In this document: one piece after another, positions 627 through 10,404 of the stretch
How the letters are laid out: every line of letters starts with the position of its first letter
How positions within the stretch are numbered: the first letter of the stretch is position 1
Source: Parcubacteria group bacterium SW_4_49_11
GTDB taxonomy: Bacteria > Patescibacteriota > Minisyncoccia > SW-4-49-11
Reading direction: 5' to 3'
NCBI GenBank assembly: GCA_003021915.1
Contig: PXOY01000018.1
Coordinates: 1-10,423, forward strand
DNA length: 10,423 bases
Program-made: the position numbers and the translations under genes
The notes under the pieces: generated by a model
Databases searched by the model: none
What the model saw: the letters and a program-made list of their open reading frames with translations, nothing else
What the model was told of the DNA's origin: nothing

Positions 627-673
627 AACCTCCATTCCCTAACGGGTGTTTCCTCCTTAAAAGGAGGAAAACA
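627..673 (-). repeat. CCCGTTAGGG palindromic repeat, copy 1
   Basis: On the minus strand this reads TGTTTTCCTCC, a short A/T loop, GGAGGAAA, then CCCGTTAGGGAATGGAGG. The TTTCCTCC/GGAGGAAA arms form an 8-bp stem. The same layout recurs at 3179-3228 and 4581-4632 on the plus strand, and the CCCGTTAGGGAA block is identical in all three. There is no T-run after the stem on either strand, so it is not a typical intrinsic terminator. All copies are intergenic. A small palindromic (REP- or MITE-like) element is the simplest reading. Confidence 0.8.
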
Positions 674-712: not shown

Positions 713-745
713 AAATTCGAGGTAGAGCGTCGGATGTCGCTAACG

Positions 746-867
746 GCAGTCCCCCGGAAATAGCTTCTCTTTTTAAAGAGAAGCGTAAAAACCGAAGGTT
801 TTTAAGTGCCCGTCAAATATCGACCCGAAGGGGGATGGAGTTCTTCAGATTTTTGAGATGCGTCCTA
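746..867 (-). repeat. Two-hairpin composite element, copy A
   Basis: On the minus strand this begins TAGGACGCAT (from 867). It runs through a 46-nt block (844-799, from AGAACTCC to CACTTAAAAA) that matches 44 of 46 positions with the block from 4688. Hairpin 1 follows (AAAAACC/GGTTTTT, plus coordinates 787-803), then hairpin 2 (GCTTCTCTTT/AAAGAGAAGC, 763-784), then CTATTTCC and GGGACTGC (ending at 746). The order is the same as in copy B. Stem sequences differ between copies while complementarity is kept, which suggests selection for structure. This copy lacks the TATATC iteron tail. Confidence 0.75.
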
Positions 868-1754: not shown

Positions 1755-3050
1755 ATGCTGGACAGCAAATTTATTCGGGAATATCGGATGCTTGTGCAAA
1801 ACGCCATAGAGGATAAAGGTGTGGATTTGGACCTTGAAGAGCTTCTTTCCCTCGATGATAAACGGCGTGAACTCCAACAAGAAGTGGAGGATATCCGGCG
1901 ACAGCGCAAAGAATACGCCTCTTATCTGAAAGGTGAACTCTCCGAGGAAGAAAAGCAAGAGTATCAGCAAAAGGGGAAAGAGCTGAAAAAGGAATTGCAA
2001 GCGAAGGAAGACGAGCTTAATGGCATGGAAGAGCGGTTTCAGACTCTTATGTATCACGTTCCCAACATCTATTCGGAAGACTCCCCGGTGGGGGAGGATG
2101 ACTCCGCGAACGTGACCATCAAAACCGTGGGTGACGTGCCGGAATTTTCGTTCGAACCGGCGGATCATATCCAGCTGGGCGAGAACCTCGGATTGATTGA
2201 TTTTGAGAGCGGGGTAAACATTAGCGGTTCGCGTGGCTATGTGTTAACTAACGAGGCAGTGAATCTCCATTACGCACTCTTGTGGTATAGCCTTCAACAC
2301 ATGCAGAAGCGCGGGTTTATGCCCGTCTCCACGCCCACGATTGTGAAAGGCGCGCATCTTTACAGCTCCGGTCATTTTCCCACTGAAAAGGATGAGGCAT
2401 ACAAAGTGGAAGATGCCTCCACCGAACGAGAATCGCGCTACCTCGCGGGTACGTCGGAAATTGCCATTTTAGGCATGTATCAGAACGCGGTGTTTGCCGC
2501 CGAGGACCTTCCGAAGCGCGTGTCCGCGATTAGTCCGTGTTATCGCTCAGAAGTGGGGAGTTATGGCAAGGATACGCAGGGCTTGTATCGCATGCACGAG
2601 TTTATGAAGGTGGAGCAGTTTGTGATTTCGCCGGGCAATGTGCGGGAGTCCGACTTTTTGCATCACGAAATGCTCACCTTTAGCGAGGAGATTATGCGCG
2701 CGTTGGAGCTTCCGTATCGGGTGGTGCAGGTGTCCACCGGTGATATGGGCCCGCCGAAGTATAAGCAATATGACATCGAGACGTGGATGCCGTCCCGAAA
2801 CGACTACGGAGAAACCCATTCCACGTCCAACATCACTGATTGGCAAGCGCGCCGAGCAAACATTAAATATGTCGCCGAAGACGGAAAGAAATATTACGCC
2901 CACACGCTTAATAATACGGCTATCGCCAGCCCGCGCATGCTGATCGCGATTTTGGAAAATTATCAGAACGCGGACGGCTCGGTGACGGTACCGGAGGTGC
3001 TGCGTCCGTATGTTGGGAAAGAGAGAATCGCAGTAGCAAGTAGCGAGTAG
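1755..3050 (+). CDS. serS: Serine--tRNA ligase (SerRS)
   Basis: Seryl-tRNA synthetase charges tRNA-Ser (and tRNA-Sec where present) with serine using ATP, in the cytoplasm. The N-terminal region (about residues 25-100) is rich in Lys, Glu and Gln, as expected for the long coiled-coil arm that grips the tRNA variable arm. The class II catalytic core follows: TSE at 233-235, motif 2 beginning YRSEVGSYGKDTQGLYR at 263 with the usual HEFxKVEQF, then SNITDWQARR. Motif 3 is HTLNNTAIASPR from 383, with Arg394 as the class II arginine. The family more often has HTLNGSGLAVGR, so motif 3 is a variant. The length of 431 residues is normal. I chose the ATG at 1755 (MLDSKFIRE) because SerRS proteins usually begin MLDxKxIRE; an in-frame ATG at 1743 would add four residues. 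Neither has a good Shine-Dalgarno. The last residues (about RIAVASSE) come from a TAG-rich repeat tract. Confidence 0.96.
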   Translation: MLDSKFIREYRMLVQNAIEDKGVDLDLEELLSLDDKRRELQQEVEDIRRQRKEYASYLKGELSEEEKQEYQQKGKELKKELQAKEDELNGMEERFQTLMYHVPNIYSEDSPVGEDDSANVTIKTVGDVPEFSFEPADHIQLGENLGLIDFESGVNISGSRGYVLTNEAVNLHYALLWYSLQHMQKRGFMPVSTPTIVKGAHLYSSGHFPTEKDEAYKVEDASTERESRYLAGTSEIAILGMYQNAVFAAEDLPKRVSAISPCYRSEVGSYGKDTQGLYRMHEFMKVEQFVISPGNVRESDFLHHEMLTFSEEIMRALELPYRVVQVSTGDMGPPKYKQYDIETWMPSRNDYGETHSTSNITDWQARRANIKYVAEDGKKYYAHTLNNTAIASPRMLIAILENYQNADGSVTVPEVLRPYVGKERIAVASSE

Positions 3051-3102
3051 CAGGTAGCAAGGAAATAGTATTTAGTAGTTAGAATATAGAATTTAGAATA
3101 GT
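3031..3102. repeat. TAG-rich short-unit repeat tract at the serS 3' end
   Basis: AGTAGCAAGTAGCGAGTAGC and similar GTAGC units are followed by TAGTATTTAGTAG and AGAATATAGAATTTAGAAT units. The tract is imperfect but clearly built of 5-8 nt units containing TAG. It overlaps the last six or so sense codons and the stop (3048-3050) of serS. The composition differs sharply from the coding sequence before it. Confidence 0.7.
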
Positions 3103-3178: not shown

Positions 3179-3228
3179 TGTTTTCCTCCTTTTTAAAGGA
3201 GGAAAGACCCGTTAGGGAATGGAGGTTT
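3179..3228 (+). repeat. CCCGTTAGGG palindromic repeat, copy 2
   Basis: This has the same layout as 627-673, in the opposite orientation: TGTTTTCCTCC, TTTTTAAA, GGAGGAAAG, then CCCGTTAGGGAATGGAGG. The TTTCCTCC/GGAGGAAA stem is intact. It sits between serS and the HIT gene, just before the HIT promoter, and has no T-tail on the plus strand. Confidence 0.8.
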
Positions 3229-4580: not shown

Positions 4581-4632
4581 TGTTTTCCTCCTTTTCTAAA
4601 GGAAGAAAAGCCCGTTAGGGAAAGGAGGATTT
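4581..4632 (+). repeat. CCCGTTAGGG palindromic repeat, copy 3
   Basis: The layout matches copies 1 and 2: TGTTTTCCTCC, TTTTCTAAA, GGAAGAAAAG, CCCGTTAGGGAAAGGAGG. The right arm has GGAAG in place of GGAGG, leaving one mismatch in the stem, so this copy has drifted. It lies about 20 bp before the start of the two-hairpin element. Confidence 0.75.
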
Positions 4633-4651: not shown

Positions 4652-4787
4652 TTAGAACGCATTTCAAAATTAGAATACTTCGTCACGAGAACTCCTTCCC
4701 TCTTCGGGTCGATATTTGACGGGCACTTAAAAAACATGAAATGTTTTTTACGGCTTTCTTTCGAAAGCCTATTTTCGGTGGGACTGC
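4652..4787 (+). repeat. Two-hairpin composite element, copy B
   Basis: The element begins TTAGAACGCATTTCAAAA. A 46-nt block (4688-4733) follows that matches copy A at 44 of 46 positions. Hairpin 1 is AAAAAACAT/ATGTTTTTT (4729-4737/4741-4749) and hairpin 2 is GGCTTTC/GAAAGCC (4752-4758/4763-4769), then CTATTTTC and GGGACTGC. Hairpin 1 has 9 bp here and 7 bp with a different sequence in copy A. Hairpin 2 also changes sequence while staying paired. This is the only copy that has both the upstream block and the iteron tail. Confidence 0.75.
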
Positions 4788-4924
4788 ATTTTAGCTCAAT
4801 TATTACTGGCATTGAGCAGGGAAACACAACCGTATATCTACCGTGTATCAATTTATATCCACTGTATATCATGCCCGAAGGGTATATATCGTGCTCGAAA
4901 AGCACATGTAATCTATCGTATATC
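4780..4924 (+). repeat. 31-nt core plus phased TATATC iterons, copy B
   Basis: The core at 4780-4810 matches 10234-10264 at 30 of 31 positions. GCTCAAT (4794-4800) and ATTGAGC (4811-4817) form a 7-bp stem around its 3' half in this copy. GAAACACAACC then leads into GTATATC-like motifs starting at 4832, 4843, 4853, 4864, 4884 and 4918. The first gaps are 11, 10, 11 and 20 bp, close to whole helical turns. Small hairpins lie between iterons (GTGCT/AGCAC at 4891-4904). Iterons on one DNA face suggest protein binding or curvature. No bound protein is known to me. Confidence 0.6.
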
Positions 4925-5012
4925 GAATTTACTGGCTTCGGGCTTCCGGATTCAGGCTTCTCTTTTAAGATTCCTTCTCGGTATTTGTGTGCAGTGTGGC
5001 TCATGTGTTAGT

Positions 5013-6807: not shown

Positions 6808-8083
6808 ATGATCACCTTGCAGTTTTGCGGCGGCGCGCGTTCGGTCACGGGCGGAAACTATCTTGTAGACAACGGACGAGTAAAATTTTTGCTGGAATGC
6901 GGCATGGCCCAAGGGAGTCAGGAGGCTGAACAAAGCAATTACGAACCGTTTGCGTACGAGCCTTCCGTGATTGATTTTTTGATAGTGACGCACGCGCATA
7001 TTGATCATATGGGACGGGTGCCGAAGTTAGTCAAAGACGGCTTTGACGCGCCGATTTATTCCACCCCGCCCACGAAAGACATTTCTCGTATTGCGCTCGA
7101 GGACAGCGTCTCGGTTATGAAAAACGAAAAGACCGAGACGCCCTTACTTTTTGATATGGAGGACGTGAACGCCGGTTTGGGTCACCGATCACGACGAAGA
7201 GCGCAAGAAAAAAATTGTGCTTTCCGGAGATATGGGAAATATTCCTTCGGTGCTTTTGAACCAGTACGCGTACATTGAACAAGCGGATTACGTTTTGGTG
7301 GAATCGGTGTACGGAGATCGCATTCACGAAGACAATTCAGAGCGTTCGCTTATTTTAAAGAAGGCGCTGAAGGATACGATCGAGCGCCAATCCACACTTC
7401 TTATCCCTACGTTCGCGATTGAGCGTACGCAGGACCTTATTTACGAGATGAATGACTTGGTTACCAACAACGACGGGAGCGGCAAACGACTCGGCCGTGT
7501 GGGAGAAATTGACGTCTATCTTGATTCTCCGATGGGCATTGAGGTCACGAAAGTGTTCCGAAAGTACACGCAATACCTGAACGAAAGCGCACGCAAACAT
7601 GCAAAAAACGACGAAATCTTTCAGTTTCCGTTCTTTACAATGACGTCCTCCACCGAAGAGTCCATGGAGATTAACACCGCTCCCAATCCGAAAGTAATCA
7701 TGGCCGGTGCCGGCATGTCCACGGGCGGACGTATTCTCTATCATGAGGAGCGCTACCTCGAGAATCCCGATAACATTATTCTTTTTGTCGGGCATCAGGT
7801 AGCGGGCACCACCGGGTACGCTATCAAAGAAGGAGATACGCCGATCTACATTCACGGCAGTCCGGTGGAAAATAACATCGAGAAGCGCGTGATCGACGGA
7901 TACTCGGGACACGCCGATCAGGCGATGCTGTTGAATTGGCTTTCGGAATTTCAAACGAATCCCGAAAAAGTGTTTATCGTGCAGGGAGATAAAGCAGCGA
8001 GTGAGGCGTTGGCGCACAAAGCGCGCCATGTTTTGGGGTACAAAACCTGTGTCCCTCGGCCCAACGAACTCGTAAGTCTCTAA
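6808..8083 (+). pseudogene. Beta-CASP metallo-beta-lactamase RNase-like gene, broken by internal deletion and frameshift
   Basis: Two overlapping frames (6808-7278 and 7217-8083) together make one family member (COG1236/Ysh1-like RNA-processing exonuclease). The first carries the metal motif THAHIDHMG (His62, His64, Asp66, His67). The second carries the metal aspartate in LSGDMGN, motif A region LVESVYGDR, motif B GAGMSTGGR and motif C SGHADQ. Good similarity in frame 1 stops at about MEDV (near 7166). In frame 2 it resumes with WVTDHDEERKKKIVLSGDMG, readable from 7178, with a TGA in that frame at 7166-7168. The segment normally between them, about 30-40 residues with the GHxxGS histidine (metal motif 3), is missing. 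This is more than a single-base slip. The full enzyme would be inactive unless the deletion is an assembly error. The acetyl-CoA synthetase gene follows after 10 bp. Confidence 0.85.
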
Positions 8084-8093
8084 CCTTTGACGT

Positions 8094-10157
8094 ATGGAAC
8101 GACTCTTTTATCCGCGGCGACTGGTGGTAGTAGGTGCTTCGCGCAATCCGCGCAAAGTGGGCTCGCTCATCCTCAAAAATATTCTGGAGAGTAACTACGA
8201 AGGAGAGTTAACCGCTGTTAATCCGCATGAGGATTCGATTATGGGCGTCCCAACGGTGCACGACGTCTCGGTAATTAAAGCGCCGATCGACGTAGCGATT
8301 ATTGCCATCCCCGCCCAAGCTGTTCCGGAAGTGTTAGAACAATTGGGTGAGCGGCGGTGTAAATACGCCGTGGTTATTTCGTCCGGATACGGAGAAACGG
8401 ATAAGAAGGGCGAGGAGCGAGAAGAAGAGCTCGTGAAAATCGCGAATCGCTACAATATCACGTTGGTCGGCCCCAATTGCTTGGGGGTGATTAACGCCTC
8501 CTCGGCCGCGCACGCCTATAACGGCTCGTTCGCGCTTTCCTCACATATCAAAGGTTCGGTTTCCTTAATCTCGCAGTCAGGTGCCTTAATTTCTTCGGCT
8601 CTTGATTACGGGGCGCAGGCCGGTTTCGGGTTCAATAAAGTAATCAGTATTGGCAACCAAGCGGACTTAGATGTACTCGATGGCATTTCTTATCTTGCCG
8701 AAGATGACAGTACCGACGCCATCGCCGTATACGTGGAAGGCTTGAAGCACGCGGAAGAATTGATGAAAACGCTTTTGGAGATTGAGAAACCGGTCATTCT
8801 TCTCAAACCCGGGTCCACCAATGCCGCGAAAGAAGCGATTTCTTCGCATACCGGCTCCCTCGCGGGTGAAGAACGCGTCATTCGCGAACTATTTGAAGAA
8901 GTGAACGCCATTCAGGTGGACTCGCTTGAGGAAATGTTGAGTACGATGCATCTCTTTTCTATGCATCAAAACGTCTCTAAGCGTGACGTGGGGGTGGTGA
9001 CGAACGCCGGCGGCGTAGGCGTCATAGCCGTGGATACGCTCTCGCGAGCAGGGCTTTCCCTCGCTTCTCTTCAGAAAAAGACCCAAGAGGCGCTCAAAGA
9101 TTCCCTGCCGGACGCGGCTGCGGTGTCCAATCCCGTAGATGTATTGGGAGACGCGGGGCATGAAGAATATCATGCTGCCGTACAGGCCGTTTTAGAAGAA
9201 GGAGAAGTGGGAAGCGTCGTCGTGGTTGTCACGCCCCAGATTATGACACCGATTAAGAAAATCGCCGAAGCACTGAGACGGTTGGCAAAACAGTATCCGC
9301 ATAAGCCGCTTGTTCCCATTTTTGTGGGAGGGGATGGCGTACAGCCCGCGTTTGATCTGTTGCAAGGCAAACTCCCGGTGGCGCGCACGCCGAATGTCGG
9401 AATTGAAGCTTTGGCACGTCTGTATCATTACAGCGAAAACCCGCCCAATAAAAAGCTTTGGTCCCGTCCCACCCGCTACGTTAAAAAGCAGAGTCTGGAA
9501 CGCGTGGGCGAATTGATTTCTGAACAACGCACGGCAGGCGCGACGGCTTTGGACTTTGACACGATTTCGGTCATTGGCGAAGAGTTTGATATTCCCTTCC
9601 CCAAGTTTGATTATGTGGAGGCCGAAGAGCAGTTGGGAGAGATTTGGAAGTCGTATCAGAAACCGGTGGCGATGAAAGCTGTCGCCCCCGATGTTTTGCA
9701 TCGCAGTGACGAGGGGAAAGTGGAGACCAATCTTTTGAAATTGCCGGATGCCAAAGCGTTCTATCGGCGCGAGCAAGATCAGACCGTGATTATGCAACAG
9801 CAGATCATGGACGGAGTGGAAATGTTCGCAGGTGTCAAAACCGATCGCCAGTTCGGTAAAGTGCTTGTGGTAGGCCTCGGCGGTATCTACGCCGAGATAA
9901 TTGACGACACTGCAGTCGGTATTTTGCCCATAACCAAGCCGCGTATATGGCGACTTTTAAAACAGACCAAAAGCTATCAGGTGCTCAAAGGCGCGCGCGG
10001 AACGGTATATGATACGCAGTTTCTTGTCGATACCATCTACAACATCCATCTTTTCGCCATATCGTTTGAAGAAGTCAAAGAAATCGACGTCAATCCGCTC
10101 ATTGTTCAGGAGACAGGCGGCTACGTCGTAGATATGAAGGTGCTTTTGAAGGAGTAA
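8094..10157 (+). CDS. acd: Acetate--CoA ligase (ADP-forming), fused alpha and beta subunits
   Basis: The 687-residue enzyme converts acyl-CoA, ADP and phosphate to the free acid, CoA and ATP, giving substrate-level ATP from acetyl-CoA in fermentative cells. Domains in order: CoA-binding Rossmann fold (about 1-130, VVVGASRNPRKVG; VGPNCLGVINA), succinyl-CoA-ligase-like domains (about 145-290 with SLISQSGAL, and 300-430), and a C-terminal ATP-grasp domain (about 460-687, KPVAMKAVAPDVLHRSDEGK; GLGGIYAEI). The alpha-type catalytic His252 lies in SSHTGSLAG. The second phospho-histidine of this family corresponds to His536 in VLHRSDEGKV. Both are present, so the enzyme looks intact. It starts 10 bp after the broken beta-CASP gene and has no visible promoter of its own, so it probably depends on that gene's promoter. 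No Shine-Dalgarno precedes the ATG. Relatives may act on propionyl- or other acyl-CoAs, so substrate range is not certain. Confidence 0.93.
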   Translation: MERLFYPRRLVVVGASRNPRKVGSLILKNILESNYEGELTAVNPHEDSIMGVPTVHDVSVIKAPIDVAIIAIPAQAVPEVLEQLGERRCKYAVVISSGYGETDKKGEEREEELVKIANRYNITLVGPNCLGVINASSAAHAYNGSFALSSHIKGSVSLISQSGALISSALDYGAQAGFGFNKVISIGNQADLDVLDGISYLAEDDSTDAIAVYVEGLKHAEELMKTLLEIEKPVILLKPGSTNAAKEAISSHTGSLAGEERVIRELFEEVNAIQVDSLEEMLSTMHLFSMHQNVSKRDVGVVTNAGGVGVIAVDTLSRAGLSLASLQKKTQEALKDSLPDAAAVSNPVDVLGDAGHEEYHAAVQAVLEEGEVGSVVVVVTPQIMTPIKKIAEALRRLAKQYPHKPLVPIFVGGDGVQPAFDLLQGKLPVARTPNVGIEALARLYHYSENPPNKKLWSRPTRYVKKQSLERVGELISEQRTAGATALDFDTISVIGEEFDIPFPKFDYVEAEEQLGEIWKSYQKPVAMKAVAPDVLHRSDEGKVETNLLKLPDAKAFYRREQDQTVIMQQQIMDGVEMFAGVKTDRQFGKVLVVGLGGIYAEIIDDTAVGILPITKPRIWRLLKQTKSYQVLKGARGTVYDTQFLVDTIYNIHLFAISFEEVKEIDVNPLIVQETGGYVVDMKVLLKE

Positions 10158-10180
10158 TTTGTCGAATTACTACGGTCACT

Positions 10181-10240
10181 GAAGAAACCTGGGGTTTCTT
10201 CCGGCCTCTTACGAGGCCTATCTTCCAACAATGGGGACTG
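10181..10240 (+). repeat. Two-hairpin composite element, copy C
   Basis: Hairpin 1 is GAAGAAACC/GGTTTCTTC (10181-10189/10193-10201) with a 3-nt loop, and hairpin 2 is GGCCTC/GAGGCC (10203-10208/10213-10218) with a 4-nt loop. CTATCTTCC and GGGACTGC follow. The stems differ in sequence from copies A and B but keep order, loop sizes (3 nt and about 4 nt) and the CTATyTTC linker. The conserved upstream block of A and B is absent. It begins 24 bp after the acetyl-CoA synthetase stop and has no T-tail, so it is not an obvious terminator. Confidence 0.75.
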
Positions 10241-10346
10241 CATTTTAGCTCAATCATTACTGGCGGTGAACAGCTATTACGGAGGAAAACACAACCGTAT
10301 ATCTACGGTATATCGCGCCGCCAGGCGCATATATCCATCGTATATC
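10234..10346 (+). repeat. 31-nt core plus phased TATATC iterons, copy C
   Basis: The core at 10234-10264 is 30 of 31 identical to copy B. GAAAACACAACC then leads into iterons GTATATC at 10297, GTATATC at 10308, ATATATC at 10329 and GTATATC at 10340. The spacings are 11, 21 and 11 bp, again whole helical turns. A hairpin GCGCC/GGCGC (10315-10319/10324-10328) lies between the second and third iterons, where copy B has the unrelated but also paired GTGCT/AGCAC. Confidence 0.65.
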
Positions 10347-10404
10347 TTTTATGGCTACTCCCTTATTTGGTAGGATACATGTATAGCAACAAAACAAACC
10401 CCGT

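Follow-up and report, generated by a model that had tools for sequence, protein, structure and literature searches.

E1, a twin-hairpin repeat family of a Patescibacteria genus, has covarying stems and is probably a dispersed DNA palindrome

Known repeat systems and the place of E1 among them

Several kinds of short repeat with palindromic or hairpin-forming sequences have been described in bacteria. The REPs are characterized as palindromes of 20-40 bp tagged with GTAG or CGTC, and those with the CGTC tag as dispersed palindromes without a dedicated transposase (PMC3733652). The BOX, RUP and SPRITE repeats of Streptococcus pneumoniae are small interspersed repeats present only in close relatives and were judged parasitic by their describers (PMC3049150). 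The IS200/IS605 elements are reported to have subterminal secondary structures and to target the lagging strand (PMC6006769), and stem-loop sequence families (SLS) have been catalogued in 40 genomes (PMC2267715).

The window, the whole stretch of 10,423 nucleotides analyzed here, comes from the 0.49 Mb genome of Parcubacteria group bacterium SW_4_49_11 (G000) and holds three copies of a repeat, all of which belong to one family that we name E1. With the REP/REPIN repeats mobilized by RAYT (TnpA-REP) it shares the short, high-copy intergenic palindrome, the conserved unpaired motif beside a variable stem and the frequent occurrence in clusters, but it differs from them in its two different adjacent hairpins, in its TCGA end and in that no E1-flanked Y1 gene was found in the flanks examined. 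Where a REP would carry its GTAG or CGTC tag, at the base of the stem, E1 has KCACT before hairpin 1 and TATTTTC after hairpin 2. Like the CGTC-tagged REPs as described, it is a dispersed palindrome for which no dedicated transposase was found; unlike them, it is longer, has no CGTC at the stem foot and lies in nested mosaics. BOX repeats have a modular build, as does E1. Docking at the 3' ends of tRNA genes, which is seen in E1, is absent from the summary description of BOX, RUP and SPRITE, the level at which these repeats were compared. The SLS, likewise compared by description, fall in the same broad class, that of repeated stem-loops, and their summary does not include Patescibacteria. E1 further differs from IS200/IS605 derivatives in being unlike the end hairpin of the IS200 element of G000 and in having no strict target tetranucleotide. 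In sum, E1 works like the REP/BOX-type repeats, yet has neither the tag nor the transposase association of the REPs.

Architecture and distribution of E1

The E1 unit is laid out as TCGA, about 7 nt, ACGGKCACT, hairpin 1, a single C, hairpin 2, TATTTTC, a spacer, GGGACTGC and a tail, with the unpaired linkers ACGGKCACT, TATTTTC and GGGACTGCC being conserved. It is roughly 100-120 nt long (102-122 nt in 16 G000 copies delimited by a loose pattern running from a TCGA-like end to GTTGAAC). Its left end, TCGA, is fixed, and an intact TCGA stands where expected in 98 of 134 copies. The right tail varies and has no sharp end; GTTGAAC is often present in the tails of the G000 copies. The three window copies represent three types of stem (Table 1). 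A reading made earlier from the sequence only had described tandem hairpins at three loci, with their order and their arms, and these were recovered at all three; its motif CTATyTTC breaks down in copy A, which has CTATTTCC, and its start at 4652 lies too early for copy B, since the element begins later and 4688-4708 resembles a left arm belonging to a different repeat, E2. Folded as single-stranded DNA, copies A, B and C have z scores of -4.2, -3.4 and -3.3 against dinucleotide shuffles, of which 0, 1 and 0 in 200 fold as well; each of the folds contains both hairpins. Folded as RNA, they have z scores of -4.8, -3.3 and -2.6 against such shuffles, and in copy A the best such fold loses hairpin 1 to an alternative pairing.

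Table 1. Positions of E1 copies, their parts and related repeats. E1 copies A-C and E3 are given in window coordinates and probable distant relatives in coordinates of their loci; the three E1 copies were themselves in the training set of the covariance model that scores them.
Feature	Position	Strand	Details
E1 copy A, type 3 stems, model span	735..824	-	TCGA left end 823-820; covariance model R1, 71.0 bits, E 4e-15
Copy A hairpin 1	786..804	-	arms TAAAAACC/GGTTTTTA
Copy A hairpin 2	763..784	-	arms GCTTCTCTT/AAGAGAAGC
Copy A 3' linker TATTTCC and GGGACTGC	746..762	-	
E1 copy B, type 1 stems, model span	4708..4799	+	TCGA left end 4709-4712; covariance model R1, 97.1 bits, E 1e-21
Copy B hairpin 1	4728..4750	+	arms TAAAAAACAT/ATGTTTTTTA
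Copy B hairpin 2	4752..4769	+	arms GGCTTTC/GAAAGCC
Copy B TATTTTC, spacer and GGGACTGC	4770..4787	+	
Copy B right-hand tail ATTTTAGCTCAAT...ATTGAGCAG	4788..4819	+	direct repeat D7, common to copy C
E1 copy C, type 2 stems, model span	10161..10253	+	TCGA left end 10162-10165; covariance model R1, 73.9 bits, E 8e-16
Copy C hairpin 1	10181..10201	+	arms GAAGAAACC/GGTTTCTTC
Copy C hairpin 2	10203..10218	+	arms GGCCTC/GAGGCC
Copy C TATCTTCC, spacer and GGGACTGC	10219..10241	+	
E3 near copy A	627..673	+	inverted repeat I2; family search
E3, no E1 inside	3180..3227	-	family search
E3 upstream of copy B	4581..4628	-	family search
Distant E1-like twin hairpins, G164	L167 9672-9923		
Distant E1-like twin hairpins, G164	L168 185-270		
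Distant E1-like twin hairpins, G164	L171 2-64		
Distant E1-like twin hairpins, G056	L174 14740-14878		
Distant E1-like twin hairpins, G056	L177 8235-8318		

As a DNA query, copy B has at least 30 matches in G000 and at least 27 in G001, the sole congener among the relatives returned (23 candidates were scored in each genome), and none in 34 further relatives. Profile searching gave 67 matches at E < 1e-10, of which 64 were aligned with MAFFT after removal of one duplicate and two that were cut by contig ends. A covariance model built from this alignment, the kind of search proposed with the sequence-only reading, recovers 78 matches in G000 and 65 in G001 (E <= 0.001), which amounts in G000 to about one match per 6 kb (78 in 494,541 bases). 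The detailed analyses below use the 134 aligned matches at E <= 1e-5 in the examined stretches of the two genomes, 133 of them distinct. Four of the 134 are cut at contig ends, and the family may thus break assemblies.

In comparisons with Rfam, only a tRNA in the window passes the curated threshold and E1 remains unmatched, and the two microRNA matches found elsewhere are both far below threshold. This agrees with the earlier view that E1 is no named RNA family, and the broader proposal of a new repeated structured element, be it an RNA or a mobile palindrome, is borne out by a family that is multi-copy, structured, covarying and below every Rfam threshold. An exact-pattern search of GTDB contigs returned 15 stretches, all from the Candidatus Paceibacterota assembly JAHEOE01, whose coordinates match and identify it as G001; two exact E1 patterns had no match in viral contigs, and the literature searched on Patescibacteria yielded no description of an E1-like family.

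When 383 genomes of the class were scanned with a sequence-trained model, under stricter filters that distant copies may escape, four had matches: clear ones in G000 and G001 and a single weak one in each of G164 and G056. Twin hairpins resembling E1 are present in the inspected parts of the latter two genomes (74 kb and 194 kb, respectively); they comprise AAGAAACC/GGTTTCTT and a second hairpin, accompanied by motifs like TTTCCnAyACGGG. A profile of 23 type 2 copies, picked after these matches had already been seen, reaches E 9e-8 in G164 and 6e-4 in G056, and two further weak matches in G164 have E 0.0018 and 0.0049; in the controls the best E values are 2.2 for reversed sequence and 4.3 for the family members without E1, of which 51 kb was searched. 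Judged by their sequences, these elements, which come from two other families of the class, are probable distant relatives of E1. As the type 2 matches beat the controls, E1 proper, which is confined here to one genus, probably belongs to an older superfamily. In some of the G164 and G056 elements there is an apparent third hairpin behind TTTCCnAyACGGG.

Covariation of the stems

RNAalifold, applied to the 64-copy alignment, predicts exactly two hairpins with 15 pairs, 9 of which are changed on both sides. Across the 133 distinct copies, 96.0% of the 1,960 stem cells are paired (shuffled mean 76.8%, with 0 of 500 shuffles as high). Changes on both sides affect 343 stem cells against a shuffled mean of 96, and the covariation score of 0.461 compares with 0.136 in shuffles and at most 0.157 with slid partners. 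The number of pairs with changes on both sides (9 vs 7.9 in shuffles, 60 of 500) and that of further pair types (33 vs 30.4, 37 of 500) are not clearly above the shuffled values. The 134-match alignment was fitted to the covariance model and is therefore biased toward the structure, and the independent MAFFT alignment of 64 copies agrees with the same picture.

Hairpin 2 occurs as ten distinct fully paired stems and hairpin 1 as three main types, the first of them (type 1) an A-tract/T-tract stem; most of the aligned copies have KCACT before hairpin 1 and TATTTTC after hairpin 2. The earlier statement that nearly every stem pair had changed on both sides was overstated: it applies to 9 of the 15 pairs among the 133 distinct copies, and the A-T core of hairpin 1 is nearly invariant. 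An outer helix closing both hairpins (CGG with CCG) is 82% paired on columns that are nearly constant and thus lend it no support.

RNA or DNA

Covariation is commonly read as the signature of a structured RNA, which was one of the two options that the sequence-only reading named for the compensatory changes. Three tests instead speak for DNA, and the step from such changes to an RNA is unsupported. The first concerns mismatches: RNA stems tolerate G·U and not A·C. In the stems of E1 there are 26 G·T and 17 A·C mismatches among 1,960 cells (p 0.22), as opposed to 16 and 0 in the acceptor and T stems of 29 distinct tRNAs from G000, G001 and some relatives (Fisher p 0.0026), a control in which the acceptor arms were positioned for maximal pairing with G·U scored as a pair, so that a low A·C count was favored. 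Near-intact E1 copies have ratios of 8:3 and 7:4 (against the tRNAs, p 0.056 and 0.019), and this weaker contrast indicates that the power of the test is modest. As to orientation, the copies in codirectional regions comprise 18 in sense and 29 in antisense (p 0.14), or 21 and 28 with looser gene calls, and hence show no sense bias. Finally, three sites occupied in G000 are empty in G001: no E1 is present behind the ortholog of the CoA-ligase-like gene (protein 80% identical), at tRNA-Trp, where the whole spacer differs between the two genomes and a clean insertion is not readable, or within about 170 nt behind tRNA-Gly(TCC).

Template switching, by which the arms of a palindrome are kept matched, is a published mechanism (PMC8794818). 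It could yield the covariation of E1 with no selection at the RNA level, and it may have such a role here.

Genomic context and insertion sites

Genes were called by a simple longest-ORF method and ARAGORN, with ORFs that overlap E1 or are shorter than 110 aa set aside. By these calls the 134 copies fall in 101 regions between genes, of which 25 are convergent, 2 divergent and 37 codirectional, the other 37 having one neighbor unknown; the excess of convergent over divergent regions is significant (p 6e-6). One copy is present in 74 regions, two in 21 and three in 6. Among the 50 cases with an upstream gene on the same strand, the left edge of E1 lies between -2 and +6 nt from the 3' end of that gene in 16, one further distance is 20 nt and the remaining 33 are at least 59 nt; comparable distances to gene 5' ends (n=33) have a minimum of 10. 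The 16 junctions comprise 10 tRNA and 6 coding genes, one of the latter (locus L123) showing no TCGA there. In the window, the CoA-ligase-like gene has its stop codon at 10155-10157, and the TCGA of copy C begins 4 nt past it. Behind several tRNAs, two or three units form arrays at a spacing of about 100 nt. This strand-specific abutment at gene 3' ends could also reflect a role at transcript ends.

Sorting by regular expressions, confined to left junctions, places 59 of the 134 inside other repeats (28 in E3, 26 in E2 and 5 in hairpin 1 of another E1), and 22 in E1 arrays; a further 16 abut gene ends, and the other 37 lie elsewhere, 5 of them directly after a truncated E1 left end. The 56 distinct contexts 5' of TCGA have no strict target site and show weak preferences, with C at 43% in position -1. 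A DDE-type MITE would be expected to have terminal inverted repeats and a target duplication; in E1 the left end is fixed and the right one variable, and no duplication was seen by eye. Insertions into E3 and E1 seem, again by eye, to have removed some of the target sequence. The unsharp right end, the lack of a strict target motif and of a duplication, and the apparent loss of target argue that the process is not a clean transposition. In 63 of 102 regions, E1 reads along the strand of negative GC skew (p 0.022). A permutation test of the correlation gives p 0.005, and this bias, calculated from short stretches, is a weak hint of a fork-linked orientation.

Partner repeats

E3 and its apparent relative E2 constitute a second twin-hairpin family, with at least 32 matches in G000 and at least 33 in G001 (25 candidates scored in each) and none for E3 in 34 other relatives. 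E1 is often nested in this family, and copy A lies inside or beside both E2 and E3. Another genus of the same taxonomic family, g4, has twin hairpins of the form CCC..GGG / CTCCCTCC..GGAGGGAG whose letters are unlike those of E3; they match in 3 of 18 genomes searched (37 times in G005, 6 in G004 and 2 in G006; for instance, at loci L159 and L164 of G005 and L165 of G004). The E1, E2/E3 and g4 families together imply that much of the intergenic DNA examined is a mosaic of palindromic repeats. Repeats of the CCGTATATCTACGGTATATC type (E4) are found at 4826-4925 and 10295-10350 of the window, behind copies B and C, and behind other E1 copies. Degenerate repeats of the AGTAGC/ATTTAGTAG type occur at the end of the serS frame (3025-3090), and similar ones behind several E1 copies elsewhere.

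Search for a mover

Five families of enzymes were searched for, and none of the transposase or recombinase genes found has E1 in its examined flanks. G000 and G001 have one Y1 transposase match each. That of G000 is an ordinary IS200-type tnpA with an end hairpin of its own, different from E1, and with no E1 within its 1.5-kb flanks; that of G001 also has no E1 in its examined flanks and forms an IS200/IS605-like tnpA-tnpB pair with a tnpB-like gene, next to apparent phage-tail-type genes, on a 3.3-kb contig (C54, locus L059) that is possibly foreign to the bin. Phage_integrase-family genes number one each in G000 and G001, with no E1 in the flanks examined, and one or two in all five E1-free members of the family, by which a tyrosine recombinase is disfavored as the mover. 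Reverse transcriptases were found in none of 7 genomes and IS110 in neither of 2, and a DDE_Tnp_1 gene is present once in G001, with no E1 alongside, and not in G000. Both genomes are incomplete (74% and 88%), and the mover could therefore be missing from the assemblies.

Interpretation

Between the two options left by the sequence-only reading, the mobile palindrome is the better one, even with no mover found. We consider E1 to be probably a non-autonomous dispersed DNA palindrome of the REP/BOX/MITE type that spreads via single-stranded, fork-linked events. The basis for this is its high copy number, its location between genes, the restriction of its close form to one genus, its nesting in other repeats and in itself, its presence or absence at orthologous sites and its covarying stems. 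During replication, E1 would spread in the form of a folded single strand. Its unpaired linkers ACGGKCACT, TATTTTC and GGGACTGCC would serve for recognition or as guides, and its stems would be recognized through their shape and not their letters; template switching across the palindrome may partly keep the arms matched. The TCGA left end would then join tolerated sites, including those immediately past the 3' end of a tRNA or coding gene. Any effect of E1 on the host is probably incidental. A wider version, which we put forward tentatively and with the odds against it, makes E1 a bloom, specific to one genus, within an older superfamily of twin-hairpin single-stranded DNA elements that extends across the class (Paceibacterota/Minisyncoccota). 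In this version E1 would dock its TCGA end directly after tRNA and protein genes, at their 3' ends, would be moved by an as yet unrecognized type of enzyme and would have its stems kept paired by template switching.

The strong covariation, the conserved unpaired linkers, which could be single-stranded binding motifs, and the left edges at gene 3' ends, 10 of 16 of them at tRNAs and several followed by two- or three-unit arrays, would also suit a structured RNA, be it a multi-copy small RNA or a 3'-UTR element made by read-through from tRNA and protein genes. Such an RNA is nevertheless unlikely, given stems with no excess of G·U, the 18 sense against 29 antisense copies, the three orthologous genes that do without E1 in the sister species, the lack of an Rfam match, the loss of hairpin 1 when copy A is folded optimally as RNA and an outer helix unsupported by variation. 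The 143 matches in two small genomes would be an unusual number for a small RNA. Less likely again is that E1 is selected as a bidirectional transcription terminator, or as a module of 3' ends, at sites downstream of genes and in convergent regions: the 25 convergent against 2 divergent regions and the A-tract/T-tract stem of type 1, with TATTTTC after hairpin 2, are what it would predict, but type 2 copies have no T-run behind either hairpin, the orthologs of three E1-bearing genes have no E1, and insertions that spare promoters would likewise avoid divergent regions.

The docking at tRNA 3' ends and the tandem arrays also recall the sites of tyrosine recombinases, such as integron attC or tRNA attachment sites, with tandem accretion behind tRNAs; the attC core is GTTRRRY, which GTTGAAC of the G000 right tails fits. 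We regard this as very improbable, since Phage_integrase-family genes are just as present in all five E1-free family members, the array spacing of about 100 nt leaves no room for cassette genes, and E1 has two hairpins and not the one fold of attC.

The lineage of G000 is known for streamlining, and the density of E1 is remarkable for a sub-megabase genome. If the DNA palindrome reading holds, covariation can arise in dispersed DNA palindromes, which would be a warning for the calling of RNAs; were the superfamily real as well, it would provide a natural case of strong covariation without RNA. The comparison of G·T with A·C mismatches offers a cheap means of discriminating RNAs from DNA palindromes, and the docking at gene 3' ends combined with the missing transposase turns the mode of spread into a concrete question.

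Other genes of the window

At 3-575 the window codes for a protein of leucine-rich-like repeats of 63 nt (21 aa) that has no Pfam match. A metallo-beta-lactamase/beta-CASP nuclease-like protein (Pfam Lactamase_B; Beta-Casp, RMMBL) is specified in two frames, 6808-7278 and 7217-8083, a split that, as read from the sequence, is apparently a frameshift or a sequencing error near 7190-7217.
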